This document shows positions 9,487-14,318 of a DNA stretch of 26,818 nucleotides, in pieces. Every line of letters begins with the position of its first letter. The first letter of the stretch is position 1. Below the pieces are notes generated by a model. The model was not told where the DNA came from and did no database searches. It saw nothing but the letters and a program-made list of their open reading frames with translations. A program made the translations under genes and the position numbers. Source of the DNA: a virus; the IMG/VR virus record IMGVR_UViG_3300043449_002532, positions 1 to 26,818 of that record; one strand, given 5' to 3'.

Positions 9487-9636
9487 CTAAACGTCGATAT
9501 GGGGGCGGTTCCGGAGAAAGGTGATGTTTATATCGCGTTTACCGATAAGTACCCGGAGAACGAAGAATTGGCCGTTAAACCATACACTCTGCTCGTCTAG
9601 GTAGGCACATAATCCCTTGAGGTGACTCTCAGCCAT
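9487..9636 (-). CDS. Possible 49-residue ORF after the tape measure gene
   Basis: This minus-strand frame starts at ATG 9636, inside the last codons of the tape measure gene, and ends just before the hairpin. It reads MAESHLKGLCAYLDEQ, then an alternating hydrophobic part ending in RNRPHIDV, which looks like beta strands. The frame is open further up (WYGLAQIGRIH) but has no other start. No ribosome site is seen. It fills the only gap in the block, but an opposite-strand 33-codon frame (9499-9600) is also open, so coding is uncertain. Confidence 0.3.
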   Translation of the reverse strand: MAESHLKGLCAYLDEQSVWFNGQFFVLRVLIGKRDINITFLRNRPHIDV

Positions 9637-11651
9637 GTGGATTCTGCCGATCTGGGCGAGGCCATACCAGGGAACACCGAGGTGTTGTTTATGTTGTTAT
9701 TGTTTACTTTGGTCAGATTAGTCATTCCTGCGCCACCGTCTCGTTCTGCCTGGGGTGCCGCATCTCTCTGAAATTCTCTAGCAGCCATGAGCGCGCCTCC
9801 TGTTTGTGGGGGGGAGGCTGGCATCTCTGATATGCGAGGCGACACGGAGGATTCTCCTCCCTGTACAGACTGTGGTATTGAGGTTGCTGGGCCTGATGCC
9901 GCAACGACAGTGGGCGGTGTTGAAGGAACCGAGGTTGGCCCTGACACTCCTGTGACTCCCGCCACCGCGGTAGGAGAGCCTTGTTGTTCTTTTTCTGCTG
10001 CTTCACCTGACAACCAAGCTGAAACTGTCTGTTTCCCCAATTCCATCATCTCAGGAAGTCGTTCGGGAGCAAGTGGGTCTTGCTCAGGGTACACAGGTGG
10101 GCCATTTTTTGGACTGTATATTTCTGTGTAGGCATCACGCACCAGGGAGGTGACAATAGCAGGTATCGACGCACCTGGTATCGGTAACGCCCCGGCGGCA
10201 TCGATACCCGCCCCAACAAGATCTCCCTTCATCAGACGTTGGGCGGCAAAATAGAGGCCCATTGCCGTGCCTACAACGGGAATAATACTTGCGGCCTTGG
10301 ATTTCAAGACCTTGGGGGCAAGATTTTTCAACACCCCCAACACTTTACTCTTAGAGGCGACTCGCTCGGCTCCGGCAACTCCTTGGGTAACTTTAGAGGC
10401 CGCATTCAATTCTTTGATCGCAGGGGTAGCTGCGGCGATTCCTTTGGTTGCAACCTCTCCGGCTCCTGTCGCAACTTTTCCCGCGGTCTCCATAGCGCCT
10501 GTAGTTGCGCCTTTTGTCGCCGCAGATGCCGCCGTTCCCAATAGTCCCGCTGAAGCCCCGACCACTGTGCCGGCGATACCTTTGACTCCTTTGACAAGAG
10601 AACTCCCTAGTTGTCCTGCTCCTTTAATGACATTGGGAACATTTTCTAGCATCTTCGGTATCGTTTGTATTCCTGCCTTGAACATTTCAAAGAACCCTGT
10701 CACAAGACCTTTGAGCATGCTAAAGGGTCGGCTCAGTAGCCCCAATGCCGCTCCAAATTCTAGTGCGGAGCCGGATAGACTCTTGAACCAACCTGAGATA
10801 GTCTCGAATAGACCACCGGAAGGTTTGCCCGAATCCCCAGTTTTACCAGAAGAGTTTCCGGCCAGTCCAGAAAGAGCTTTCCCCGCCCCATCAACTCGCG
10901 TGGGTTTACCGAAGCGTTGCTTGTATTGCTCCTCTGCAAACTTATCACCGCTGAGGTCGGCTCGCCGTGCATCTCCTCGGTTTTCAGCAAACGTGATGTC
11001 ACGCAGTTCCTTGAGATATTGTGTTTGTCTCTCTTCTGCCCGTGCCATGGCACCCGATGCAAATTTACCGGTATTGGCATCCCTTAGTCTACCCTCAGAG
11101 GTTACCTTGATATCCTTGGTGGCCTTCAGCTTGACGGCAATATCCGTGACCCGCAGTGCAATTAAGGCCAGTGTTTTGGTCATTTGATCAAGTAGGTGTG
11201 TGGAGTTGTCTTGGTCGAGTGTAGAACCTTGGTTCTCCCGTGGGGATAGCATATCCGGTGAGACTGGCTCGGTTGAATATGGATCTTCCCGCTCGGCTAG
11301 ACCGGCAGCCGAGCGTATAGATTTTTCGGACCTACCCAAGAGTCTACCAGAAAGAGCTGTAGCGAGTTTGGATCCTCCCGTAATCTTGTGTACAATATTA
11401 AGAGGATCGATAGCTCGTTTGAATTCGGCTTTGGATTTTTGAGCTTGGAATGCAAGACCTTCCTTTGCTGCCCCCATTAAACTCCCACCACCGGCAATCA
11501 CATCTGCGGCGACATCGGTGGCCGTGGATTCCCGATAGTGAGGCTTGGCAATCTGCATCCTAATGTTTCTGAGCGCATCCAACAATTCTCGCCGGGTCTC
11601 TTTGCCCAGTTCAACTCTTGGGGGCTTTTGTGGGGGTCCTTGCTCTAGCAT
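9597..11651 (-). CDS. 29: Tape measure / tail length determinant protein (gp29-like)
   Basis: A 684-residue protein (T4 gp29 has 590). It has a charged, helical first third, a long hydrophobic glycine/alanine-rich centre at roughly 280-560 (for example LFETISGWFKSL, GIAGTVVGASAGLLGTAA), a Pro/Ser/Thr-rich region and an Asn-rich end. This is the typical make-up of tape measures: it sets tail tube length and is threaded through the tube. The identification rests on composition, size and position directly after the gp26/gp51 chaperone genes; the sequence itself is weakly conserved. By the usual 1.5 A per residue rule the tail would be about 100 nm (inference). AAAGGAA stands about 13 bases before the start. 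Confidence 0.75.
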   Translation of the reverse strand: MLEQGPPQKPPRVELGKETRRELLDALRNIRMQIAKPHYRESTATDVAADVIAGGGSLMGAAKEGLAFQAQKSKAEFKRAIDPLNIVHKITGGSKLATALSGRLLGRSEKSIRSAAGLAEREDPYSTEPVSPDMLSPRENQGSTLDQDNSTHLLDQMTKTLALIALRVTDIAVKLKATKDIKVTSEGRLRDANTGKFASGAMARAEERQTQYLKELRDITFAENRGDARRADLSGDKFAEEQYKQRFGKPTRVDGAGKALSGLAGNSSGKTGDSGKPSGGLFETISGWFKSLSGSALEFGAALGLLSRPFSMLKGLVTGFFEMFKAGIQTIPKMLENVPNVIKGAGQLGSSLVKGVKGIAGTVVGASAGLLGTAASAATKGATTGAMETAGKVATGAGEVATKGIAAATPAIKELNAASKVTQGVAGAERVASKSKVLGVLKNLAPKVLKSKAASIIPVVGTAMGLYFAAQRLMKGDLVGAGIDAAGALPIPGASIPAIVTSLVRDAYTEIYSPKNGPPVYPEQDPLAPERLPEMMELGKQTVSAWLSGEAAEKEQQGSPTAVAGVTGVSGPTSVPSTPPTVVAASGPATSIPQSVQGGESSVSPRISEMPASPPQTGGALMAAREFQRDAAPQAERDGGAGMTNLTKVNNNNINNTSVFPGMASPRSAESTWLRVTSRDYVPT

Positions 11652-11656
11652 AATCG

Positions 11657-11917
11657 TTATCGATTCCTTTTATTCTGTGCGTTCTGTAACTTGATTCGTT
11701 CGTTATCTCGCTCAACTCGCTGCTGCACCAACGACAGATAGATGAGTCGTTCCCATGGTAACATTTCTTCCAGCTCACTGATCGTAAACTTATGATCCTG
11801 TACCAAAGCAAACGTGGTGATGTAATAGTTTGCCAGGGTATCGTGCTGGAGAATTAGACGAAAAAACTGTCTAGCCCACTGACCACCACATCTTCCTTGT
11901 ATCCACACTTCGGGCAC
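11657..11917 (-). CDS. 51: gp51-like tail assembly chaperone part, probably made by -1 frameshift from gp26
   Basis: The frame is open from ATG 11917, but its first 64 bases overlap the gp26 zinc-ribbon end and translate to unlikely protein. The part after the overlap (LILQHDTLANYYITTFALVQ, ELEEMLPWERLIYLSLV) is the conserved piece that follows the gp26 domain in related phages (the LPWER motif). No credible start codon with ribosome site exists for it; ATG 11783 would lose most of it. A slippery T_TTT_TTC at 11866-11860 would join gp26 residue 246 to 67 residues of this frame, a fusion of 313. It ends six bases before the tape measure gene. Confidence 0.7.
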   Translation of the reverse strand: MPEVWIQGRCGGQWARQFFRLILQHDTLANYYITTFALVQDHKFTISELEEMLPWERLIYLSLVQQRVERDNERIKLQNAQNKRNR

Positions 11918-12597
11918 TTGAAGTGCAGTGTATGTTCTATTTTAGGCATCGTATCGAAGAAGGCATCTATTTTTTCCACTTGGCTATGATTGAGGGTATT
12001 CACGAATTCAATCACTTCCTCTTGGGGAACATCCTTGGTCGCAATCACAGTATCGCTGTCATTAATGGACTCGATACATTCCACCAGAAAGGCAAACGCT
12101 TCCTCTGATGGTAGATCCTTTCTAGAAATACTACGAAAGGACTTGAATGTGGGGTATCTGAGGGTAACCCCCACGGTGTCTGTCAATTGGACATATTTTT
12201 GATGATCTTTCCCGAATGTGGGACGAATATCGAGCAAATTGATCTCATAGTCAGATACGGTGTTACAAGGAGCTGGCATGCCGGTACTGGCATCTGGGTA
12301 CGATTGGTTGCATCGATATCTCATCTTCAGGGTTTCCCCAATACTCCTGGCTCGAATATTGAGGAAGAGGAATTCAATATCAAAGAGTGGAAGTTTATCA
12401 ATTTGGATGTTGGAGATGACCCCCACACAATTTTCTAGAATTTCCTTGGCGGTATTCAAAATCGTGGTCGTATCGTCCGATTGCATGGCAATCATCAGGA
12501 GTTTTTCCTCTTTCACCAAGAAGGGTCGAAATGACACCTTTAGCCCCGATGGGCACACCACATCATATGTCGGCACGGTTAACTTAGGGAGTTTCAT
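11854..12597 (-). CDS. 26: Baseplate hub assembly chaperone gp26
   Basis: A 247-residue protein of the T4 gp26 baseplate family. It shows the conserved opening LPKLTVPTYDV, FRPFLVKEEKLLMIA, then the DIEFLFLNIRARSIGE segment and YPTF. It ends in a CPKCG zinc ribbon and a G-L-D-S-F-F tail. In T4 it is needed for hub assembly and is not a main virion component. Start: ATG 12597 has GAGGTG six bases upstream; a GTG at 12606 would overlap that site. The FF codons at the end form the slippery site described separately. Confidence 0.85.
   Translation of the reverse strand: MKLPKLTVPTYDVVCPSGLKVSFRPFLVKEEKLLMIAMQSDDTTTILNTAKEILENCVGVISNIQIDKLPLFDIEFLFLNIRARSIGETLKMRYRCNQSYPDASTGMPAPCNTVSDYEINLLDIRPTFGKDHQKYVQLTDTVGVTLRYPTFKSFRSISRKDLPSEEAFAFLVECIESINDSDTVIATKDVPQEEVIEFVNTLNHSQVEKIDAFFDTMPKIEHTLHFKCPKCGYKEDVVVSGLDSFFV
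11860..11866 (-). promoter_or_regulatory. Putative -1 ribosomal frameshift site T TTT TTC
   Basis: On the minus strand the gp26 codons AGT TTT TTC GTC TAA give the heptamer T TTT TTC in exact X_XXY_YYZ phase, two codons before the stop. Slipping back one base continues as CGT CTA ATT CTC in the gp51-like frame. A perfect 6-bp stem (GCAAAC/GTTTGC) occurs about 30 bases downstream; whether it helps is unknown. A missing T in this homopolymer (assembly error) would give the same picture. Confidence 0.6.
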
Positions 12598-12612: not shown

Positions 12613-13245
12613 TTAGACAATAAATCCATCTTGTTCGCTGCTTGCATCGAGTACACGTTGGGGGACTTGGACCGGTCCTGTTGGTATATTGGCACCACTG
12701 TTCGGTTTGGAGATTGTGTAGTATTCATAGGCAAACGTGACTGTTGTGCGGTGGAATCCATCTTCTGTCCAAGACAATGGCATCTGATTAATCGAAAGTG
12801 GGAAGGCATTGAACAAATTCCATGTAGCAACCTCATCCAATCCCGTACTGTTTTCCGCCGAGGATACGACATCGTATTGGGTGACCTGCATATCGACCCG
12901 ATATCTATTTGGATAGGATAGTATGTTGGTACTTGAGTCAAAGATCCTGTCCATCCATAGTTCAAATAATGTCCGAATACCCAGCGTGTCATTTTCCAAA
13001 AATGTCAAGATGATGTCTTGATACAGCGATTGATATGGTACTTTGTATACGGGCCCATATATCTTAACGTCTTGTGTCACGAGTTGCCTGCCTGGCAGTT
13101 CAGCCGATTCACAACGCAATGGTAAATCTCGCGGGTTCAATCCCAATTTATCGGTCAACGCAGGCATCGACGCGATAAAATGAGAGACCTTGGCAACACC
13201 ACGAGTATTGATGTGTGACAGAAATTCGCTATATATACCTGCCAT
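12613..13245 (-). CDS. Tail-tube-fold protein, probable gp54-like tube initiator
   Basis: A 210-residue protein with the tail tube family pattern: LRCESAELPGRQL, KIYGPVYKVPYQS, ILTFLEN, the VDMQVTQYDV strand, NLFNAFPLSINQMPLSW and TTVTFAYEYY. Tube (gp19), gp48 and gp54 share this fold. The ELPGRQL and KIYGP segments and its place beside gp4, gp26 and gp29 rather than beside a sheath gene point to the gp54 type that starts tube growth on gp48. It is shorter than T4 gp54 (320). It might instead be a gp19-type tube subunit. Stop and start of the two genes overlap (TAATG). Confidence 0.72.
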   Translation of the reverse strand: MAGIYSEFLSHINTRGVAKVSHFIASMPALTDKLGLNPRDLPLRCESAELPGRQLVTQDVKIYGPVYKVPYQSLYQDIILTFLENDTLGIRTLFELWMDRIFDSSTNILSYPNRYRVDMQVTQYDVVSSAENSTGLDEVATWNLFNAFPLSINQMPLSWTEDGFHRTTVTFAYEYYTISKPNSGANIPTGPVQVPQRVLDASSEQDGFIV

Positions 13246-14310: not shown

Positions 14311-14318
14311 TATAAATA
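14311..14318 (+). promoter_or_regulatory. T4-type late promoter TATAAATA
   Basis: An exact T4 late promoter octamer stands in the gap between the divergent gp4 and gp48 genes. The predicted transcript start is near 14324, giving a leader of about 24 bases with GGAGG at 14335-14339 before ATG 14348. It likely drives the whole baseplate operon. Confidence 0.65.

Follow-up and report, generated by a model that had tools for sequence, protein, structure and literature searches.

The gp26 junction and its frames

Do the gp26-like gene of an uncultivated T4-like phage and the gp51-like reading frame behind it represent two genes, or a single gene with two products? The window analysed here (IMGVR_UViG_3300043449_002532, positions 1 to 26,818) belongs to an uncultivated lineage and carries a T4-like tail module on the minus strand, with a tail tube gene, gp26, a gp51-like extension in the -1 frame and an ORF of 684 aa (Table 1). 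Judged from sequence, we consider it very probable (roughly 0.93) that programmed -1 ribosomal frameshifting makes a short (247 aa) and a long (313 aa) tail assembly chaperone from this locus, similar to gpG and gpGT of phage lambda.

The 3' end of gp26 reads GAC AGT TTT TTC GTC TAA on the minus strand. The -1 frame past gp26 runs open until a stop at 11659-11657 and encodes 67 aa (RLILQHDTLANYYITTFALVQDHKFTISELEEMLPWERLIYLS...KRNR), and a backward slip of one base at the heptamer joins gp26 residues 1-246 to RLILQHDTLANYY...KRNR in a protein of 313 aa. The original prediction of a T_TTT_TTC in exact slippery phase at the gp26 end, of a second ORF that is open in the -1 frame and continues the protein, and of 246+67 residues for the predicted fusion is thereby borne out in the sequence. 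The gp26 product is a member of PF12322 (T4_baseplate; E 4e-60; 203.7 bits versus a curated cut-off of 24.5) and matches phrog_150 (E 9e-67), with a best amino-acid identity to an isolate gp26 of 39.9%. For the -1 ORF there is a match to phrog_634 (gp51, "baseplate hub assembly catalyst") and a weaker one to the C-terminal part of phrog_150. An AlphaFold model of gp26 is confident (pLDDT 86); in Foldseek it matches the HK97 chaperone gp13 (2OB9) weakly (probability 0.66, E 0.92), and a sequence search of solved structures with the gp26 alignment returned zero matches.

In the proposed mechanism gp26 and the following gp51-like frame would constitute one gene for two tail assembly chaperones. 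Most ribosomes would terminate at the TAA and release the short form, while a minority would slip back one base at U_UUU_UUC, where both Phe-tRNAs can re-pair with UUU, and would then read CGU and onward into the long form with its gp51 domain. By analogy with lambda, a coat of numerous short and rare long copies would form on the tape measure protein, recruit tail tube subunits and then leave. We infer that the shift takes place in vivo, with what efficiency, and that the products serve as chaperones in the window phage.

Table 1. Features of the gp26/gp51-like locus and neighbouring genes in the 26,818-nt window.
Feature	Position	Strand	Basis
gp26-like gene; its 0-frame product of 247 aa is the putative short chaperone of tail assembly	11854..12597	-	PF12322 and phrog_150
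Slippery heptamer T_TTT_TTC, 0-frame phase	11860..11866	-	read from sequence; in-phase heptamer kept by 58 of 61 clusters
0-frame stop TAA, one codon past heptamer	11854..11856	-	read from sequence
gp51-like extension, -1 frame, 67 aa plus stop	11657..11860	-	phrog_634, E 3e-22; -1 frame in every relative
Predicted 313-aa fusion, gp26 codons 1-246 plus extension	join(12597..11860, 11860..11657)	-	
SD-like AGTGGG, 8 nt before heptamer, possible stimulator	11875..11880	-	anti-SD duplex energy
Outer stem, 5' arm, 5 nt past heptamer	11844..11854	-	pairs with 11805-11795; 90% of cells paired, 9 clade members
Outer stem, 3' arm	11795..11805	-	pairs with 11844..11854
Inner stem, 5' arm	11828..11834	-	pairs with 11813-11807; 89% of cells paired; 3 pairs changed on both sides
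Inner stem, 3' arm	11807..11813	-	pairs with 11828..11834
684-aa ORF, candidate tape measure protein	9597..11651	-	position: starts 5 nt past extension stop
Tail tube protein, directly upstream of gp26	12613..13245	-	phrog_45, E 1e-35

Neither a tRNA nor an Rfam family was found within the window. The motif TATAAATA, the core of the T4 late promoter, is present at 14311-14318 (+) in the gap that separates the divergent gp4-like and gp48-like genes; chance alone would give about one match in the window.

Conservation of the slip site

Loci were taken from viral contigs and phage genomes, gp26 was located by profile and clustered at 90% identity, and the junction was read in each of the resulting 61 distinct non-T-even relatives. 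The junction has one frame relation, a phased slip site, a conserved -1-frame protein, no conserved start and structure downstream. Every one of the 61 clusters encodes the gp51 domain in the -1 frame, and 58 possess a T_TTT_TTN in slip-competent phase 6-30 nt upstream of the gp26 stop (T_TTT_TTC in 43, T_TTT_TTT in 13 and T_TTT_TTG in 2); the three clusters without a phased heptamer are all Ackermannviridae. Such retention is far beyond chance. At other positions of these loci, Phe-Phe pairs have the form T_TTT_TT[TC] in 21 of 192 cases (11%). The product of codon-usage probabilities, given the amino acids, is ~1e-30 for the 58 clusters and still ~1e-12 when each of 25 clusters formed at 50% identity is represented by a single sequence, although both values overstate the significance because clusters are treated as independent lineages. 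The original prediction took the codons of the C-terminal Phe-Phe pair for the slip site and looked to related phages for a conserved heptamer with out-of-frame continuation; these relatives agree with it in heptamer, phase and frame.

The nine relatives in the clade of the window (gp26 61-74% identical) all read A[GA]T TTT TTC. The same junction occurs in the isolates KVP40, Aeromonas phage 65, S-PM2, P-SSM4 and phiM7; two of these carriers of the frameshift signal, KVP40 and Aeromonas phage 65, are Straboviridae. The codon before TTT varies (Ser AGT or TCT, Asn AAT, Asp GAT), its final base is always T, and two Rhizobium phages have Leu in place of the second Phe, yet with a heptamer that is still slippery, T_TTT_TTG. 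When the Ps15 and D483 proteins were each used as the sole query of a scan, they recovered two loci and none, respectively.

Two side observations concern individual loci. One clade (L071, L073, L094, L095) has GAT TTT TTT TTC, which forms two overlapping in-phase slip sites, and has lost the upstream Gly/SD-like element. At L078 1546-1650 the gp26 copy is disrupted by an early frame change, probably as a result of misassembly or gene decay.

Start codons and alternative origins of the second product

Two separate proteins would result if ribosomes that terminate on gp26 reinitiated there on gp51, as on a TAATG, but we consider this very improbable. In Ps15, D483, KVP40, P10VF, N34, phiM7 and some Kyanoviridae an ATG overlaps the gp26 stop or follows it closely, and gp51 is a separate CDS in the GenBank annotation of many phages. 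Some start codon of the -1 frame lies near the junction in 24 of the 58 clusters, sometimes as TAATG, and reinitiation could there add a separate gp51 peptide. However, ATG, GTG and TTG are all missing from the other 34 between the opening of the -1 frame and a point just past the gp26 stop, many of these clusters closing the frame near the slip site, and the start varies while the heptamer does not. The T-even gp51, too, is a full-length long form and not a free C-terminal domain. According to the original prediction the second ORF has no credible start of its own; this is correct in the sense that no start is conserved, but the window does contain two upstream GTG codons in the -1 frame, at -61 and -52 from the stop. 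These are not conserved within its own clade and cannot be a conserved start, because several close relatives (L002, L004, L007, L008, L009) close that frame until 4-5 codons before the gp26 stop. In KVP40, D483, Ps15 and N34, where an ATG lies at or past the stop, coupled reinitiation may therefore add a free gp51 peptide to the products of frameshifting.

Annotation of the domain is inconsistent: several deposited cyanophage genomes (L145, L155 and other Kyanoviridae records) leave it unannotated, and in L147, L154 and L157 it is annotated from differing, probably wrong, internal starts.

We regard it as still less probable that RNA polymerase slips on the T run and generates mRNAs with an altered U count that yield the fusion on translation. 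Runs of 6-9 T exist at every junction outside Ackermannviridae, and they are long (GAT TTT TTT TTC) in the clade of L071, L073, L094 and L095. Slippage of RNA polymerase is independent of codon phase, yet the runs of six or more T at the junction are in the ribosome-slippery phase in 58 of 58 cases compared to 36 of 74 in the background, and ribosomal slippage is therefore favoured; moreover, most runs comprise just six T followed by a C, and RNA structure is enriched downstream. A sequencing or assembly error (a T missing from a simple in-frame gene) or a pseudogene has a negligible probability: homopolymers are error-prone, but dozens of independent contigs share the out-of-frame junction, its presence in the finished isolates KVP40, S-PM2, P-SSM4, Aeromonas 65 and phiM7 refutes such an error, and the in-frame fusion with seven T, which the original prediction named as its counter-case, is found in none of the relatives examined.

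Candidate stimulators of the frameshift

In a folding scan over the 58 loci the signal peaks just past the heptamer, where the 65-nt segment that begins 12 nt past its first base has a mean folding z of -1.45 (se 0.23), compared to -0.24 at an offset of 40 nt and ~0 at offsets of 60-170 nt; far offsets are mildly negative too (-0.86 at -600, -0.66 at +350). The two-part stem predicted for the clade of the window starts 5 nt past the heptamer and has 89.6% of cells paired, as opposed to 28-44% in slid controls, and four of its pairs display changes on both sides. We regard this pattern, seen in nine related sequences, as supportive and not as proof. RNAalifold over all clades found no common downstream fold outside the clade of the window, and the folds differ between clades.

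An SD-like GGA/GGG lies ~8 nt upstream of the heptamer, and the mean anti-SD duplex energy in this region is -5.0 versus -1.3 in the background (58 loci). We do not use this element as main evidence because its Gly codon is conserved in the protein, which the SD-like signal may merely mirror.

The downstream ORF

The original prediction placed the tape measure gene directly behind the extension. A 684-aa ORF does adjoin it, with homologous open frames of about 610-650 aa in five relatives, and although the ORF itself has no meaningful match in Pfam or PHROGs, the KVP40-like counterpart matches a tape-measure family (E 1e-6). Position and length suggest that it encodes the tape measure protein, with the qualification that the counterpart in the nearest large relative (L001) is on the other strand. 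In this relative (L001 3444-5741; G001:37356-39098 (-)) gp2-like, gp53-like and other baseplate genes come after the gp26/51 unit, and the opposite orientation of the tape-measure-like ORF recalls the divergent layout of T4.

Gene pairs in T-even phages and the case of Ackermannviridae

PMC3004832 names T4 gp26 and gp51 among the chaperones of hub assembly and describes gp51 as essential, though not a component of the virion. With T2 as representative of T4, and with other T-even types also tested, both proteins proved to be PF12322 members (T2 gp26 E 9e-64, gp51 E 3e-54), and phrog_150 matches gp51 over 13-280, as a long form, and gp26 over 14-235, as a short form. In profile comparisons gp26 aligns with the N-terminal 200 residues of T-even gp51 (probability 97%, E 8e-11) and the -1-frame domain with its C-terminal 46 residues (94%, E 1e-7). 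The predicted structures of gp26 and gp51 have most elements in the same order, with three additional C-terminal helices in gp51; a Foldseek search of the PDB with T-even gp51 yielded nothing meaningful. All eight T-even-type genomes possess two PF12322 copies and 29 others, some of them fragments, possess one. The 26.8-kb window has one gp26 match and its large clade relative G001 (178.6 kb) one PF12322 copy. T2 gp26 still ends in Glu-Phe-Phe, encoded as GAG TTC TTT, and has neither slip site nor -1 continuation. Duplication thus appears to have replaced the frameshift in T-evens, a direction suggested by the wide spread of the slip site and not by a rooted tree.

The eight Ackermannviridae loci (L159, L160, L162, L089, L084, L088, L161, L163) keep the gp51-like -1 frame without a tandem slip site: of the heptamer, one Phe codon (U_UUC or U_UUU) is left, and the codon behind it is non-slippery. 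A TAATG is found in four (LIMEstone1, K368, K475, 1.244), and the other four (CBA120, pertopsoe, Bullseye, TTM-TASP117) have no ATG, GTG or TTG before the domain. As a tentative and somewhat doubtful scheme, PF12322 chaperone pairs could be made in three ways, namely by tandem -1 slippage in most lineages, which is probably ancestral, by duplication in T-evens, and by a third route in Ackermannviridae, either a non-canonical slippage of a single tRNA or an unusual start.

Comparison with known systems

Most T4-like lineages in this survey carry the frameshift signal, and the T-evens appear to have swapped it for a gene pair. Vladimirov, Gautam and Davidson (2022, Virology 566:9-15) reportedly identified the tail assembly chaperone genes of T4-like phages. 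In the statements that refer to their article, PRFect (PMC10885494) mentions T4-like phages in which a short chaperone gene accompanies a long, fused one, and the paper on Pseudomonas phage Adele (PMC12846349) mentions poly-T slip signals in T4-like chaperone genes; a review of 2016 had listed T4 as an exception to the near-universal frameshift in tail chaperones (PMC5009743). Going by these citing statements, the principle of frameshifting in T4-like chaperones is already in the literature and is not new. The chaperones described there belong to the same protein family as the gene of the window, which differs in representing an uncultivated lineage with a best identity of 39.9% to an isolate gp26. 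With the concept published in 2022, the value of the present analysis therefore lies in its confirmation, in the extension to an uncultivated lineage and in the question raised by Ackermannviridae. There is also a practical aspect, as many deposited genomes leave gp51 out or annotate it wrongly, and a rule "PF12322 + T_TTT_TTN" would improve annotation.

The original prediction regarded T4-like gp26/gp51 as the equivalent of lambda G/GT, which holds in non-T-evens, but not for T4 itself, where 26 and 51 are separate, divergent paralogous genes. The gp26 of the window resembles the short form and T4 gp51 corresponds to PF12322 plus the -1-frame domain (as tested on T2 and other T-evens), whereas T-evens have two divergent genes and neither slip site nor frameshift.

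Vandenendeviridae and Andersonviridae, including Pseudomonas phage Adele, share with the window a -1 extension and, close to where the short gene ends, a conserved poly-T motif; they are other phage families, and their motif is reported as GTTTTT (PMC12846349).

The likeness to lambda has persisted through comparisons of frame relation, slip site and codon phase. The slip sequence of lambda is GGGAAAG, so that the slip sequence of the window is a different one, as are its PF12322 proteins and its contractile tail, and the two systems are likened by arrangement and not by sequence. In both, the short form ends just past the slip site, the long form adds a domain from the -1 frame, and the gene follows the tail tube gene and, in the window, precedes a tape-measure-like ORF. 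Lambda gpG and gpGT are described as a coat on the tape measure protein that recruits the subunits of the tail tube (PMC5009743).
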